From the NCBI RefSeq assembly GCF_000785105.2, contig NZ_CP018906.1, forward strand, positions 1,116,001 through 1,180,000: a stretch of DNA of 64,000 nt, written 5' to 3'. Below, in pieces: positions 41,994 to 48,103 of the stretch. The position numbers were made by a program, and so were the translations under genes. Position 1 is the stretch's first letter. Each line of letters opens with the position of its first letter. The notes beneath the pieces were generated by a model. It was not told the DNA's origin. It saw only the letters and a list, made by a program, of their open reading frames with translations, and ran no database searches. The DNA comes from Lentilactobacillus curieae. GTDB lineage: Bacteria > Bacillota > Bacilli > Lactobacillales > Lactobacillaceae.

Positions 41994-42124
41994 ACTTTAT
42001 GTCCTCCTTAAAAAATATCTTATGTATATGTTCATTCATTCGCGGTTTAAATGCAAGCGGAATGGTTAATTCCTTTAGGTTGCGTGTTAAAATATTGGTA
42101 GAAATAAACGACGGAGGAATCATT

Positions 42125-42451
42125 ATGGAAGTAGATGTACCTTTATCAATGCCAGAAGTTGCCGAAAAGGTGAAAGAACTTAACTCAAAGGGCCAAAACG
42201 TTACTGAAGATGACGTTATTCGTGACACGATTCTGCAATCATTCCAAGGTTACTTAGACGAAGCCGAAGAGGGTCACTACGACTCAGCCCGTTACGAGGA
42301 TGAACTTGAAGTGTTAACTGTTACTGGCCGGGTTACCCATACCATTAAGCCAATGGCTGCCGACTCACTAATCGAGGACTTTAAGAAGAATGCAGACATG
42401 ACGTTTATGTATTTAGCTGACCAGGCGGAGGCCATTGCCAAAGAAGGTTAG
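42125..42451 (+). CDS. Hypothetical protein, 108 aa
   Basis: GGAGGAATCATT precedes ATG 42125; a longer frame back to 41981 runs into nnrE and its promoter region and is rejected. The protein is acidic and soluble, with helical N- and C-terminal parts. No family is recognised. The -35 box of the tRNA-Arg promoter begins just after its stop codon. Confidence 0.7.
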   Translation: MEVDVPLSMPEVAEKVKELNSKGQNVTEDDVIRDTILQSFQGYLDEAEEGHYDSARYEDELEVLTVTGRVTHTIKPMAADSLIEDFKKNADMTFMYLADQAEAIAKEG

Positions 42452-42452
42452 G

Positions 42453-42480
42453 TTGATTTTAACGTGACGTTTACTATACT
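42453..42480 (+). promoter_or_regulatory. tRNA-Arg promoter
   Basis: TTGATT (42453-42458), a 16-base spacer and TATACT (42475-42480), placed 13 bases before the tRNA 5' end. Confidence 0.65.
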
Positions 42481-42492
42481 TAAAGATGTAAG

Positions 42493-42564
42493 GCGTCCTT
42501 AGTGTAATGGATAGCACATGAGATTTCGGTCCTCATGATCCGAGTTCGATTCTCGGGGGACGCA
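42493..42564 (+). tRNA. tRNA-Arg (anticodon TCG by position)
   Basis: A 72-nt cloverleaf can be folded by hand. Acceptor GCGTCCT/GGGACGC, D stem GTGT/GCAC, anticodon stem TGAGA/CCTCA with an A-C mismatch next to the loop, loop TTTCGGT giving anticodon TCG, four-base variable region, T stem CCGAG/CTCGG with loop TTCGATT, discriminator A. CCA is not encoded. The last 47 bases (42518-42564) are repeated 2.9 kb downstream, so this 3' part was probably supplied by an integrated element. Confidence 0.93.
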
Positions 42565-42567
42565 TAA
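42518..42567 (+). repeat. Direct repeat, left copy (attL-like) within tRNA-Arg
   Basis: Fifty bases covering the anticodon arm, T arm and 3' end of the tRNA gene, matching 45419-45468 at 48 of 50 positions (differences at 42522 and 42558). The left copy keeps the tRNA intact. Confidence 0.88.
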
Positions 42568-42893
42568 GTGTAAAATGTTGTCATACCTGGTAATTCCAGA
42601 CTATTTGGAGCATCAAAAAAATCCTTATCTAAAATCAATACAAGTTGATTAGAGTACCATTCATTAGTCAGTAAAGCTTTTTAAGCTTACTGGCTTTTCT
42701 TTTGCCTCCAGGAGTGGGAGAACTGTAAATTTGTTGAAAGTTGTTAACATGACAATTTCCGGGGCTTCTAAATACAAAAAGTAATCCTTCTTCGGAGGTG
42801 ATTTTAAAGTTTGTTCTTTGCCAAGGGGAAATCATTAGTAGTACAAAAATTTGAAATAATTATTTGATGCCAAACAAAGCATAATTATCATAA
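42565..42893. other. Gene-free left end of the island
   Basis: Between the tRNA and the end of the TetR-type gene I see only the hairpin at 42668-42699 and AT-rich sequence. No reading frame, integrase remnant or further repeat was recognised. Confidence 0.5.
42668..42699 (+). terminator. Hairpin terminator downstream of tRNA-Arg
   Basis: CAGTAA-AGC and GCTTACTG-type arms pair around TTTTTA, followed by GGCTTTTCTTTT. It would end tRNA transcription inside the inserted DNA. Confidence 0.65.
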
Positions 42894-43448
42894 CTACTGC
42901 ATATTCAACAGTGTAAAACTATTATTTACAAGCTTAGTTAAAGACTTAGTCATAGATTCAAAGGTGTAGGCATCTTGATGGTTTACCCAGTAAATATAAA
43001 TATTGATAATGCCATTGCAAGAGTATCGCATGATAACTCGTGATTGGTCAGTTTGATTGCTAATACCACTCATTAATGTGTCATAAAGCAAATTCTCTAA
43101 CTCTTGCAGGAGAATATACTGTCGATGGTTTGAACAGATATAAGTAAAACCAATTAAATTGTCTTCAAATATTTGATTGAATGTTGCAACTAAGGCTGGT
43201 GCATCATGGATTGGTGCCAAAAGTGTCTGTCGAATTTGGAATTTCAGGTCGTCTTCATACTCACTGAAGACCTCTAAAACATTATCATAGTGCAGATAGA
43301 AAGTTCTGCGATTGATATTGGCTTGACGACAGAGACCGGAAACAGTTATGTCTTCAACCAAGTGATTTTTTAAAAGTTGGAATAATGCTTTACGCAATGC
43401 ATTTTTAGTTCGGATTACACGTGGATCTAAGATAGTTTGACGTCTCAT
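42894..43448 (-). CDS. TetR/AcrR-type transcriptional regulator
   Basis: A 184-aa regulator. The N-terminal helix-turn-helix is 'DITVSGLCRQANINRRTFYLHYDN' in shortened TetR form (about residues 32-55), and the C-terminal part is of the ligand-binding type. The start at 43448 (MRRQTILDPRV) has AGGAAGAAG upstream at a slightly long distance. It is divergent from the membrane-protein gene with only 86 bp between starts, so it most likely controls that gene. It lies inside the tRNA-bounded island. Confidence 0.82.
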   Translation of the reverse strand: MRRQTILDPRVIRTKNALRKALFQLLKNHLVEDITVSGLCRQANINRRTFYLHYDNVLEVFSEYEDDLKFQIRQTLLAPIHDAPALVATFNQIFEDNLIGFTYICSNHRQYILLQELENLLYDTLMSGISNQTDQSRVIMRYSCNGIINIYIYWVNHQDAYTFESMTKSLTKLVNNSFTLLNMQ

Positions 43449-43534
43449 TACTAATACACACTTCTTCCTAATTTGTGGCAAACTTGTTGAAAACATGTGA
43501 TTTAATAATACACATAAGAAAAGGAGATGACAAT

Positions 43535-44257
43535 ATGTATACGATTAATCAAGTGATGTCCATTGTATATCATAATGAGTCAGCCGCAATTTTGATGGCA
43601 TTTATGACATATGCATTCGGATTCGCACAGTATATTACTAGCATGGTGATGCAGGTTAAGGGTAAGGAAGCACCTTTTTATTTTTGGATGCATGCTTGGT
43701 ATTTTGGTCATGATTTGACATTTTCATTATTATTTCATCAGTGGTTTAATACCGTTCATTTTTGGTTATTCGAGGTTTTGTGGGCAGGATGCGTGGTATT
43801 TGTAGGAATTGAGATATTTTCATTGTATTACTCAGTTAAATATGAAAGAAATACTATTTGGAAAAAGTATCTTAAACACGATGTGTCTACAGGTGAGGGA
43901 TGGCGTTATGGTATAGTTGGATATGCATTAGGGTTCTCACTGTTTTTCCTCATTCGATTGGGACTTGGTGACCAAATGTGTCTAATTCTCATGATGTCTA
44001 CGAATGCAATTCTTGCCTTGGCTGTTTCATTTAAGCTCCAGGAAATGGGAAGTCGACGCTATGGAACAATTATGCTTGGATGGTTCACATTGTTTGGAAC
44101 AATATTTACTTTCATGCCAAAGGGACTAGGATTCTTTGCAACTCTAATTCCTCCATTGGATGGTAGCTGGTTTACAGCTTTAGGAATTATTTGCACGTTA
44201 TTTGCAGTTCGCTATTTAATAATTGCTTTTCGCATGCCAAAGCAACTGGGTAAATAA
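43535..44257 (+). CDS. Multi-spanning membrane protein of unknown function, 240 aa
   Basis: AAGGAGATGACAAT precedes ATG 43535; an upstream frame start at 43475 overlaps the regulator's promoter region. About seven hydrophobic helices are visible, with polar or charged residues within or at their edges: 'FWMHAWYFGHDLTF', 'WLFEVLWAGC' and 'LIRLGLGDQ'. These His, Asp and Glu residues in membrane segments suggest an enzyme or transporter rather than a structural protein. I do not recognise the family. It is in the tRNA-Arg island, divergent from the TetR-type gene. Confidence 0.75.
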   Translation: MYTINQVMSIVYHNESAAILMAFMTYAFGFAQYITSMVMQVKGKEAPFYFWMHAWYFGHDLTFSLLFHQWFNTVHFWLFEVLWAGCVVFVGIEIFSLYYSVKYERNTIWKKYLKHDVSTGEGWRYGIVGYALGFSLFFLIRLGLGDQMCLILMMSTNAILALAVSFKLQEMGSRRYGTIMLGWFTLFGTIFTFMPKGLGFFATLIPPLDGSWFTALGIICTLFAVRYLIIAFRMPKQLGK

Positions 44258-44375
44258 TATTTAGACTATAGATTGATCAATCGGTGAAAAATGATGGATG
44301 GGGAATAATATGCAATGCTTTGATTAGTATAATCGGCTTTGAAAATTAGTAACTGGAATTACAGGGGTTTTAGAA

Positions 44376-45281
44376 ATGAATGGAAAAATTAATTATGACA
44401 AGCTGCCTTCTGGTATTGCGTCAAATGTGATTACAAAAGGTTGCTTGATTATTGAAGGCGGTGCTTTTCGTGGAGTTTATGCACAAGGGGTAACAGATTG
44501 TTTGATGGAGCATAATTTTAATTTTGAATGTACAGTTGGCTGTTCAGCAGGGGCTTTGACTGGCATGAATTATGTATCCGGCCAGATTGGTCGAGCAATC
44601 AGGATTAATTTAGCCTATCGACACGATAGTCGTTATGTTGGTTTAAAAGCAATCATGAAAAATAATGGCCTAATTGGTTTTGATTTTGTCCTCAATGGAG
44701 TAAACCAATATAATCGATTTGATACGAGAAGATTTTTGTCCAACAATCGACGCTTTGTCGCTGTGGCTACTGATATTAAGACTGGTAAACCACGTTATTT
44801 TGACAAGGCAATGGCCGCTGATTATCAATCTACAATCCAAGCTTCTGCAAGCATGCCATTTGTGTCCAAACCGGTTGCCATAGAAGACTCTTTTTATCTT
44901 GATGGAGGAATCACCGATTCTATTCCCTACCAGTGGGCAATAAATCACGGTTATGAGAAAGTTATCGTAGTCAGAACTAGGGAAGATACCTATCGAAAGA
45001 ACACTAAAAAAATGAGTAACGTATTAAATCATTCAGAACTTTTTAAAGAATATCCAGCGTTAGGTAAGGCATTAAACGACCGACCTACTATGTATAACCG
45101 GCAGTGTGATACCCTTGATCGTCTAGTTAAGGGAGAAAGTGTCTTTCGAATTAGTCCATCAGAACCAGTGACTGTTGGCCGATTAGAATCAAATATTTCC
45201 AAACTTGAGGAACTTTACTGGTTTGGGTATCAAGATGCAAAAAAGCAACTAACCAATTTGTACGATTATTTAAAAAAATGA
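44376..45281 (+). CDS. Patatin-like phospholipase
   Basis: A 301-aa serine lipid acyl hydrolase of the YjjU-like group. The oxyanion motif is 'EGGAFRGVYAQG', the nucleophile elbow 'GCSAGAL' contains Ser57, and the catalytic aspartate is in 'LDGGITDSIP'. There is no signal peptide, so it probably acts on lipids from the cytoplasmic side. It is the last gene of the tRNA-Arg island. Confidence 0.9.
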   Translation: MNGKINYDKLPSGIASNVITKGCLIIEGGAFRGVYAQGVTDCLMEHNFNFECTVGCSAGALTGMNYVSGQIGRAIRINLAYRHDSRYVGLKAIMKNNGLIGFDFVLNGVNQYNRFDTRRFLSNNRRFVAVATDIKTGKPRYFDKAMAADYQSTIQASASMPFVSKPVAIEDSFYLDGGITDSIPYQWAINHGYEKVIVVRTREDTYRKNTKKMSNVLNHSELFKEYPALGKALNDRPTMYNRQCDTLDRLVKGESVFRISPSEPVTVGRLESNISKLEELYWFGYQDAKKQLTNLYDYLKK

Positions 45282-45418
45282 TATCGAATATTTTAAATTA
45301 GGCAATTATAAATTACCAAACTATTTCCTATGCTATTGATTATGTTTGATTTTAATAAACTGACGGATGTGAGTAACTTTGTGCTAAGTGTATAAGTCAC
45401 TCTTAGACAGGATAAATT

Positions 45419-45468
45419 ATGATATTTCGGTCCTCATGATCCGAGTTCGATTCTCGGGAGACGCATAA
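45419..45468 (+). repeat. Direct repeat, right copy (attR-like) tRNA-Arg 3' fragment
   Basis: Matches 42518-42567 with two substitutions and lacks the 5' part of the tRNA (acceptor 5' strand and D arm absent), so it cannot be a functional tRNA. Confidence 0.88.
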
Positions 45469-45472
45469 AAAT

Positions 45473-45520
45473 AGCACCTCATCAAAGTTGTTGCTTTTCG
45501 ACTTTGGTGGGGTGCTTTTA
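45473..45520. terminator. Terminator beyond the tRNA fragment
   Basis: AGCACC(TC)ATCAAAG pairs with CTTTGGTGGGGTGCT, followed by TTTTA. It directly follows the tRNA 3' fragment, so it was probably the original tRNA-Arg terminator. It can also end the convergent secreted-protein gene. Confidence 0.75.
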
Positions 45521-45541
45521 TCGTTGTTTTTAGTTTCGAGA

Positions 45542-46543
45542 TTATTTCTTTACTACATAAACCGTTTGGGTTGAACCCTTTGCAGCATTCGTTGCGATTT
45601 TAGATGTGAAGTCATGATCCATGTCTCCGGCTTCATAACCATCAGGGATTTGTTGGTAGTTGTAAATAGTCGAGAGATTCATTCCGGTTTGGCCAGGCGT
45701 TTGCCTGTATGGAACAATCACCGTTTTTAATGTTTTCCCAGAATTATAGTCTACATAATTAACAGTGATTCCATCTTGAGGTGACACCGAGTCAATCTTT
45801 TTAAGGCCACCGTCACGAATGTATCCGGAAATCCTTGCATTGTCTTTAGCTCCTAAGCTTGCTACAGACAACCAGCGATCGCCTTCGCGAGCGTTAGTGA
45901 CCGCATCAGTAATTACAAATATATAATTTTTATATTTTTCTGAACTATTTTTATCTGGCATGTTAATTAAGGGGCCACCCAATCCAAGTGGAGACACGTT
46001 GAATGGGATGGAGTAAACCTTTGAATAACCATCGTTTGCAGTCCCAGGCTTAGCCAGTTCGTAAAAATTGGATTTTTCTGCAGCCGTAAGTGGAGATTTG
46101 AGCAAAGTACGGAATTCAGCCAGGCCACCTGCAGGACGTGTATGCTTTTTGTCCTTATAGTAGAATGGCCCAAACTGATAGCTTTTAGTTTTCCCAGAAT
46201 AAATCCAGCCGGTTATGTTGTTGTCGAATGACCGAACTTTATTATAGATATTACCGTTTGAAAGGATCGCTGTTCTAAGTAGCATAAATGAATCTAATCC
46301 GCGCTTTGAATTTGCATATTGAATCAATTGCAGTTTGTTTCTTACTACTTTTGCTCCCTTCAGTGGAGCAGCCTTACTGTACAATGCATTTTTTCCGGTA
46401 AAGGTGACATAGGTTGAAGACGCCACAAGGCGGTGTGATATTTTTTTAATCGTTGGTCGTTTGGTTTTGGCATGGACATTCTCTGGAATTGATATGAGAA
46501 GTGGCATAGCTAATAAAATTAATGCTAATCTTTTTATTTTCAT
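45542..46543 (-). CDS. Secreted protein with SH3/GW-like and MucBP-like segments, 333 aa
   Basis: A signal peptide is clear (residues of about 1-25, cleavage after 'NVHA'). The region of about 35-125 resembles an SLAP/GW-type module ('NALYSKAAPLKGAKVV', 'GWIYSGKTKSYQF'). The C-terminal 70 residues ('ITVNYVDYNSGKTLKT') resemble a MucBP-type beta domain. No LPXTG anchor is present, so it is probably released or non-covalently wall-bound. Confidence 0.75.
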   Translation of the reverse strand: MKIKRLALILLAMPLLISIPENVHAKTKRPTIKKISHRLVASSTYVTFTGKNALYSKAAPLKGAKVVRNKLQLIQYANSKRGLDSFMLLRTAILSNGNIYNKVRSFDNNITGWIYSGKTKSYQFGPFYYKDKKHTRPAGGLAEFRTLLKSPLTAAEKSNFYELAKPGTANDGYSKVYSIPFNVSPLGLGGPLINMPDKNSSEKYKNYIFVITDAVTNAREGDRWLSVASLGAKDNARISGYIRDGGLKKIDSVSPQDGITVNYVDYNSGKTLKTVIVPYRQTPGQTGMNLSTIYNYQQIPDGYEAGDMDHDFTSKIATNAAKGSTQTVYVVKK

Positions 46544-46759
46544 AATTATCCCCCGTTACTGATTTGATTACCTTACTAACCTATCATAAATTTTATGGAT
46601 GGGATATTAAGTCTAAGTTACTAAATAATGTGGACATTTTGCTTATCCCCCCCCAGTTTCTTTCACAATCAAATACTTATTTTTCTCCATTTTCCAATGC
46701 TATACTTCAGGTGTAGATTTTATTCAGACAATGACTAATTCAACACCTAAGGAGTGATT

Positions 46760-48103
46760 ATTATCGCAATTGCAAAAGTAATTGAGGGGCCTACCATGAC
46801 GTCAATCGATGCTGACAACATTGAGTGTCGGCAGCATCAGTTGATTTGCATTGATGGCCAGGGATATATCGATAGAGTTGTTGACGAAACGGATGCCGAA
46901 TTCGAGACGGTCAGACAAGAAGCGGTAGCCGGCGATAAGTTGATTTCACTGAACCCCGATGAATATATTTTGCCAGGGTTTATCGATCTTCACATTCACG
47001 CACCACAATGGCCAAACGCCGGGGTTGCGTTAGACAGACCGCTAAATGAGTGGTTGGATGTGTACACATTCCCGATGGAGGCTAAGTATCGGGATGTTGA
47101 GTTTGCCAAACGAGTTTATGATGATTTGGTTAACGAACTGATTGCTAACGGAACAACTACTGCGTTGTACTTTGGGACAATTCATAACGAAGCTAATTTA
47201 GAATTGGCAAAGGCTTGTGTCCGTCACAATCAACGTGGATTTATTGGTAAAGTGGCGATGGATAATCCTGAAGAAACGCCGGAAAATTATCGGGATGCAT
47301 CGGCTAAGGTAGCGGTTGAGCAGACCGAGGAATTTATTCACCAGTTGGAAGAACTCAACCAAACCGCAATGGTAAAGCAGACACCAGTTATTACACCAAG
47401 ATTTGTACCTAGTTGTACCCCAGAACTTCTTAAGGGGTTAGGGGAGTTAGCTGCAAAATATGATCTTCCAATTCAGTCACATTGTAGTGAAAATGATTGG
47501 GAAAATGGATTTGCCTTGGAACATTACCACAAGCGTGACTCAGAGGTTCTTGACCAGTATGGTCTGTTGACTGATAAGTCTGTGATGGCCCATGGAACCA
47601 TGCTGAACCAATCAGATTTGACGAGATTTAAGCAGCGGGGAGTTGCGGTGGCTCACTGTCCAATTTCTAACGTTTTCTTTGGTGATGCGGTTTTACCAGT
47701 TAGCAAGTTATTACAGCAACACAACAAGGTCGGCATGGGGACGGACATCTCTGGTGGCTATTCTCCAAGTCTTTACCAAAATATTCGCCAGTCAGTCATT
47801 TCTTCACGTATGCTGCACCAAGGTGTCGATCCAGAATTGTCACCTGAGGAGCGGGGGACCGATAATCAACAAATCACCGCAAAGAATGGTTTTTATTTAG
47901 CAACTGTTGGCGGTGCCGAGGGATTACATTTAAAAACTGGTCAAATCAAGGCGGGCTACTTAGCGGATTTACAAGTTGTGAAGGCCCCATTGACTAAATT
48001 TGAAGATGAGTCGTTGGACCAGACATTTGAAAAGATTATCTATCAGGCAACGAAACATGACATTAAACAAGTGTTTGTTAGGGGACAAGTGGCAAAAGGC
48101 TAG
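46760..48103 (+). CDS. guaD: Guanine deaminase
   Basis: Converts guanine to xanthine and ammonia. The amidohydrolase has 'PGFIDLHIHAPQW' (metal HxH), 'SHCSEND' and 'VAHCPISNVFF', plus a late aspartate in 'GTDISGGYSP'. The length of about 447 aa is normal. No ATG, GTG or TTG is suitably placed: AAGGAG occupies 46749-46754, the in-frame GTG at 46754 overlaps it, and the next suitable codons are ATT 46760 and ATC 46763. The start is therefore provisional. Confidence 0.85.
   Translation: MIAIAKVIEGPTMTSIDADNIECRQHQLICIDGQGYIDRVVDETDAEFETVRQEAVAGDKLISLNPDEYILPGFIDLHIHAPQWPNAGVALDRPLNEWLDVYTFPMEAKYRDVEFAKRVYDDLVNELIANGTTTALYFGTIHNEANLELAKACVRHNQRGFIGKVAMDNPEETPENYRDASAKVAVEQTEEFIHQLEELNQTAMVKQTPVITPRFVPSCTPELLKGLGELAAKYDLPIQSHCSENDWENGFALEHYHKRDSEVLDQYGLLTDKSVMAHGTMLNQSDLTRFKQRGVAVAHCPISNVFFGDAVLPVSKLLQQHNKVGMGTDISGGYSPSLYQNIRQSVISSRMLHQGVDPELSPEERGTDNQQITAKNGFYLATVGGAEGLHLKTGQIKAGYLADLQVVKAPLTKFEDESLDQTFEKIIYQATKHDIKQVFVRGQVAKG

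Follow-up and report, generated by a model that had tools for sequence, protein, structure and literature searches.

A probably decayed, integrase-deleted island at the 3' end of a tRNA-Arg gene in Lentilactobacillus curieae

We studied a small chromosomal island of Lentilactobacillus curieae (assembly GCF_000785105.2, contig NZ_CP018906.1) within a window of 64,000 nucleotides, the whole stretch of DNA analyzed, which corresponds to positions 1,116,001 to 1,180,000 of the forward strand. All coordinates given here are those of the window, and the genomes compared with it are designated by G numbers. The island lies behind a tRNA-Arg gene with the anticodon TCG, between two copies of an attachment (att) core, and holds three full-length open genes together with the end of an integrase gene:

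42493..42564, plus strand: tRNA-Arg (anticodon TCG), the integration target, whose 3' part is the left att core (ARAGORN; Rfam RF00005, 53.2 bits)
42518..42567, plus strand: left att core copy, which completes the tRNA-Arg (repeat search and alignment)
42569..42764, plus strand: left arm of the ancestral element; its homologues are the element ends next to the tRNA in G003, G004, G010, G013 (second copy), and G009 (blastn without the tRNA)
42667..42774, minus strand: tyrosine integrase gene relic, approximately the last 36 codons at the 3' end (tblastn and DNA alignment)
42894..43448, minus strand: TetR-type regulator, 184 amino acids (aa) from an inner ATG, divergent from the membrane protein gene (Pfam TetR_C_8)
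43535..44257, plus strand: predicted membrane protein of 240 aa, function not assigned (open frame and homologues)
44376..45281, plus strand: patatin-like phospholipase with DUF6363, 301 aa (PF01734, E value of 7.9e-17; PF19890, E value of 5.4e-19)
45419..45468, plus strand: right att core copy (attR), identical to the left one at 48 of 50 positions and without the tRNA 5' half (repeat search and alignment)
45473..45516, plus strand: intrinsic-terminator-like hairpin with an 18-pair stem, just outside the right core

The two cores are spaced by 2,901 bp and differ only at 42522 (G/T) and 42558 (G/A), and the repeat search thus confirmed the direct repeat described in a first-pass annotation of this DNA. 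Under looser criteria, the repeat grew to 59 nucleotides with 90% identity at the same spacing. Allowing up to 18 mismatches on either strand, no third copy was found in the window, and the 2.1-Mb genome contained, besides the two cores, one 74%-identical match elsewhere (E value of ≤0.001). The only tRNA call was that at 42493 to 42564 (ARAGORN over the whole window and Rfam over 42000 to 47000), and the right copy was not called as a tRNA, in agreement with the earlier description of a left copy that completes the gene and a right copy that lacks its 5' half. The locus therefore has the duplicated tRNA 3' end, arranged as a direct repeat, that characterizes islands of tRNA-targeting tyrosine recombinases, while the integrase gene to be sought beside the tRNA is represented by the relic of ca. 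36 codons only. The hairpin outside the right core would be the original terminator of the tRNA-Arg; between 42400 and 45700, we counted five terminator-like sites versus 2.1 (standard deviation, 1.5) in shuffled sequences. The GC fraction in 500-bp bins was 0.34 to 0.40 in the insert (6 bins) versus 0.36 to 0.46 in the adjoining DNA (13 bins).

The same site was compared in 24 Lentilactobacillus genomes, including that of the window, using a 75-base tRNA query. Every genome gave some match; in 22 of them, it covered at least 73 of the 75 bases at ≥92% identity, and the DNA behind the tRNA was inspected in all 22, while G018 and G020 had just a weaker paralogue. In 4 of the 24 genomes, a full tRNA-Arg is followed downstream by a copy that begins at query base 26, with core-to-core spacings of 2.9 kb in the window, 8.5 kb in G004, 10.6 kb in G003, and 0.93 kb in G016; G005 retained a degenerate core copy (8 mismatches out of 48). 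Beside the tRNA of G004, there is an open gene for a 424-aa tyrosine integrase (PF00589, E value of 4.7e-20), followed by an XRE regulator, small proteins that by eye look secreted, a serine resolvase, and a protein of 801 aa. The element of G003 is similar, with a frameshifted integrase (92%) next to the tRNA. These are the larger, integrase-bearing versions of the locus (8.5 to 10.6 kb) for which the first-pass annotation had proposed a search, and, being found in sister species at the same tRNA with the same core and a homologous arm, they support the tyrosine-recombinase integration that it had put forward.

For these two genomes, the 58 bp outside attR matched the DNA located directly behind the tRNA in G005, G002, G007, and G016 at 42 to 52 of 58 positions but the DNA behind their own tRNA at just 29 of 62 and 32 of 65 columns. 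For the G003/G004 subgroup, an insertion between tRNA and terminator is thereby demonstrated. Moreover, integrases 29% identical to the G004 type lie beside the same tRNA in G021 and G011, and integrase remnants do so in G019 and G022, which marks tRNA-Arg(TCG) as a hotspot of integration in this genus. A literature search combining the genus, tRNA-Arg, and integrase found no papers. Elsewhere in the Lactobacillaceae, integrases 40 to 46% identical to that of G004 were seen at L098, L099, L101, L103, L108, L110, L111, and L116, where no tRNA was called; by eye, they appear to sit near the end of a ribosomal protein gene, presumably rpsI to judge from a motif, and not at tRNA-Arg.

The insert had been described as integrase-less, which holds true in that no full integrase gene is present. 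However, the 3' end of one has survived: read on the minus strand from 42774 to 42667, the DNA matches the G004 integrase from residue 389 to residue 423 at 50% over 36 columns; one tblastn run gave E values of 7.7e-5 for the 3.2-kb island stretch and 1.2e-4 for the window. Its place and orientation relative to the tRNA are those of the integrase end in the G003 and G004 elements, and it begins at what we presume to be the catalytic tyrosine of the G004 enzyme. A second colinear stretch (42762 to 42808) may correspond to the G003 integrase if an internal deletion is assumed; its E value of 0.006 is only suggestive. The arm around the relic is homologous as well. With the tRNA excluded, positions 42568 to 42893 matched G003 (E value of 2.7e-26), G004 (2.5e-20, over 42569 to 42764), the second copy of G013 (5.6e-16), G010 (3.5e-12), and G009 (1.2e-5), with no match at an E value of ≤0.01 in the other 16 of the 21 loci compared. 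Pieces of the integrase C terminus are positioned likewise in G010 (13 aa, E value of 0.03) and G009 (0.13) and at the tRNA of G013 (13 aa, 0.40); each is weak alone, and all are placed alike in the arm alignment. The second copy in G013, ca. 7 kb further on, has a clear integrase C-terminal remnant (1.3e-21). The two tRNA-side arms of this genome (L047:5023-12362), the second of which has just a short stretch of core, suggest tandem decayed elements.

A 13-bp repeat (ATCATGACGAGTT-like, with up to 4 mismatches) was found in both arms of the G003 and G004 elements; G010 and G013 have it in their left arms, and G005 has it in its right remnant. These repeats would be the arm-binding sites of the integrase. 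The left arm of the window has a single match with 3 mismatches, which by count is at the level of chance (0.39 expected) yet stands at the aligned position, and neither the right arm of the window nor the arm of G009 has any (background from 300 shuffles per arm, mean of 0.36 to 0.48 matches). The window genome encodes four PF00589 proteins, all outside the window, of which a 321-aa protein is the nearest to the G004 integrase (E value of 1.2e-7); neither the PF00589 scan nor the comparison with the G004 integrase found a cognate integrase for the island in this genome.

The cargo is as the first-pass annotation had it, namely, a TetR-type regulator, a membrane protein, and a patatin-like phospholipase, borne out by open frames and, for the first and the last, by Pfam. 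The regulator passes the TetR_C_8 cutoff narrowly (26.2 versus 26.1 bits; E value of 8.7e-6) and is 40 to 52% identical to TetR proteins that likewise lie next to this membrane gene in Secundilactobacillus collinoides, Lacticaseibacillus songhuajiangensis, Paucilactobacillus suebicus, and P. nenjiangensis (with an apparently broken membrane frame). The DNA examined around these four divergent pairs gave no tRNA call; the pair is thus not restricted to tRNA islands. The regulator presumably controls the membrane protein. The latter had no Pfam match and is 95% identical to a protein beside the same tRNA in G009 and 49 to 81% identical to those of seven loci in other genera. It was detected in 8 of 251 genomes of a family sample (the window genome included), strongly only in the window genome, G169, and G118; G009, although a carrier, is not among the eight, presumably because it was not drawn. 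Two tandem genes of the same family (50% and 27% identical) occur in a Coriobacteriia metagenome-assembled genome (L059:2035-3657). The patatin-like protein contains the GGAFRG, GCSAG, and DGG motifs and was matched in 3 of the 24 genus genomes (the window genome; G009, 74%, on another contig; and G012, 37%), so that the three genes are not carried by all relatives, a case that would have spoken against an inserted island. At an E value of ≤1e-70, it was found in 2 of 301 genomes (the window genome and G009).

Several other origins and functions were considered and rejected. Regarding plasmids, the membrane protein had relatives of just 25 to 28% identity in 3 records. Phages gave matches to the patatin-like protein of <60% in 16 records (27 to 36% for the ten listed). 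As for a viral origin of the element, a search for viral contigs that encode a relative of this kind of integrase (G004) found none (0 of 13 candidate stretches); the phage collection has 355 records with a match to it, the best of those listed at 40%. A role in defense was dropped, PADLOC giving no match for the three cargo proteins. Finally, the AlphaFold model of the membrane protein (mean predicted local distance difference test score of 76.9) had AtSWEET13 as its best PDB match (E value of 0.25; template modeling score of 0.51), and since none reached an E value of ≤0.001, we claim no function for it.

Taken together, these observations very probably describe a decayed, integrase-deleted island, derived from tyrosine-recombinase integration at tRNA-Arg(TCG), resembling cis-mobilizable elements (CIMEs), and presumably immobile by now. 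A G004-type element would have integrated into the 3' end of the tRNA in this lineage, or the lineage would have received it, by descent or import, in the integrated state; the integration would have restored the tRNA and given rise to the attR copy at 45419. Later, the integrase gene would have been lost except for about the last 36 codons beside the tRNA, and the arm repeats would have eroded, so that the island probably no longer excises by itself. The remainder is a chromosomal cargo island, with the divergent TetR-membrane pair and the patatin-like lipase kept in frame. Of the two outcomes offered by the first-pass annotation, a decayed island or a satellite moved in trans, the former is favored because the integrase C-terminal relic is in place and the arm repeats are eroded, and the latter found little support, the sharing of the membrane gene with G009 being the one point in its favor.

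Some observations weigh against this interpretation. The relic is short, and its extension past codon ca. 388 was no better than shuffled sequence (522 of 1,000). The right inner end of the island (45282 to 45418) had no match to the ends of the G003 and G004 elements, and therefore the original right arm was either lost or derived from another lineage. Other species have a tRNA-Arg without a nearby core copy, and the right flank of the window was not syntenic in the three genomes searched: it had no match in 39 kb of G017, and G005 and G021 share with it just an amidohydrolase, ca. 29 and ca. 46 kb downstream of their tRNA. Consequently, these comparisons demonstrate no two-sided empty site for the lineage of the window. 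The similarity of the right flank to the DNA behind the G017 tRNA (34 of 65 columns) was marginal, with a mean of 25.7 and a maximum of 33 in 200 shuffles.

The alternatives turn mostly on G009, which has behind the same tRNA, in the same order, the arm, a probable integrase relic, a TetR relic (74% over 65 columns; E value of 3.4e-5), and the membrane gene. The DNA of the latter is 92.6% identical over 851 bp, and its divergence at fourfold-degenerate sites is only 0.17 (16 of 94), versus 0.60 to 0.65 in four neighboring core genes, which suggests horizontal exchange of this gene between species. Its differences by codon position (9, 6, and 25 at positions 1, 2, and 3 of 239 codons) are consistent with purifying selection. 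The patatin-like gene was rejected as recently shared cargo, since its G009 relative is on another contig and has diverged like core genes (0.66 at fourfold sites). Identity with G009 was 91 of 137 positions in the arm, 70 of 85 before the membrane gene, 682 of 719 within it, and 35 of 45 after it; with the arm more diverged than the flanks of the membrane gene, the island was not simply copied whole in recent times.

Hence, one could think of an island already without integrase in the common ancestor of the window genome (G000) and G009, inherited by both, with the membrane gene homogenized later by homologous recombination. The shared order (arm, integrase relic, though weak in G009, TetR, and membrane gene) and the greater divergence of the arm speak for this, which we nonetheless hold to be rather unlikely. 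G017 has no arm or core copy in the DNA examined and would have to have lost the island, even though it is nearer to the window genome than G009 is for hyp42126 (82 versus 62%), the M15 peptidase (85 versus 83%), and the NAD-binding protein (81 versus 71%), with YjeF as the exception (79 versus 80%). A broader and still more doubtful proposal is that tRNA-Arg(TCG) acts as a common docking site for cargo cassettes which, having lost their integrase, still pass from one species to another, either by coresident integrases acting in trans or by recombination in the flanks. It would draw on the two species that share the order, with the integrase apparently truncated already and the membrane gene much less diverged than the core genes, and on G016, which holds just a toxin-antitoxin pair between two cores. 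In this genome (L035:4939-5947), the pair consists of a ParE-like toxin and a Phd/YefM-like antitoxin (27.3 bits, under the curated cutoff of 29.8), and a similar terminator-like sequence follows both cores.

That the island is a nonautonomous satellite, still moved in trans by the integrase of another element, seems improbable. Both cores are present and 96% identical, and G009 likewise lacks a full integrase at this tRNA while sharing the little-diverged membrane gene. Yet the 13-bp repeats, our candidate arm sites, are degenerate at the left end of the island and missing both at its right end and in the G009 arm, so that no sites matching a helper integrase were found; the genome offers no cognate integrase, G009 has no right core up to the contig end (allowing up to 14 mismatches out of 48), and the arm identity leaves no room for recent copying of the whole island. 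Finally, a right copy that is a decayed tandem tRNA gene, as the retention of GGATA further upstream might indicate, is hardly credible, because the copies in the window genome, G003, G004, and G016 share their starting base in the tRNA although their inserts differ and because the integrase relic and the element arm adjoin the left copy.

Turning back to the decayed island, the elements of G003 and G004 are among its closest counterparts, with the same tRNA and core start, a homologous tRNA-side arm, and a homologous integrase 3' end. They differ in carrying the integrase itself, the XRE regulator, the serine resolvase, the small secreted-looking proteins, and the 801-aa protein, which is polymerase-like; no match to the window was found for nine proteins of the G004 element (integrase excluded; E value of ≤1e-4). 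Tyrosine recombinases and att repeats overlapping a tRNA are also features of pipolins (PMC9710591 and PMC7385651), and in this respect, the G003 and G004 elements resemble them. The island of the window has no polymerase, tblastn of the 801-aa protein of G004 giving no match in the window at an E value of ≤1e-4, and it thus lacks the primer-independent PolB gene between att repeats by which a pipolin is defined. The 801-aa protein (L033:5780-8185 in G004 and L034:13035-15440 in G003) had no Pfam or PHROG match at an E value of ≤1e-3, no convincing PDB sequence match, and one weak PADLOC match to Cas10b (7.6e-5). In 5 plasmid records, proteins from Limosilactobacillus fermentum, Staphylococcus epidermidis (annotated as a DNA polymerase), and Fusobacterium are 23 to 26% identical to it over 40 to 61% of its length; by eye, it has family-B polymerase-like motifs. 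On the basis of this distant similarity and these motifs, the G003/G004 element is possibly a chromosomally integrated, divergent pipolin in lactobacilli.

The island itself is CIME-like; CIMEs are known, for example, from the tRNA-Lys of Streptococcus agalactiae and from S. salivarius (PMC5704250 and PMC7563491). Descent from an integrative and conjugative element or an integrative and mobilizable element, with conjugation or mobilization genes in the parent, would be conjectural for this island: a Pfam scan of six open frames, part of the genes of the G004 element, gave no relaxase. It also differs in its eroded arm repeats and in that no neighboring helper was seen, as there is no PF00589 integrase elsewhere in the window. 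Like a CIME, however, it sits at the 3' end of a housekeeping gene between direct att repeats, with both the attL and attR cores retained, only cargo between them, and the integration genes deleted down to a relic, and at 2.9 kb it falls within the range of 1.2 to 13 kb given for classical CIMEs in PMC7563491. With the att cores and the last integrase codons surviving next to open cargo frames, the island appears as a mobile element caught midway on its path to ordinary chromosome.

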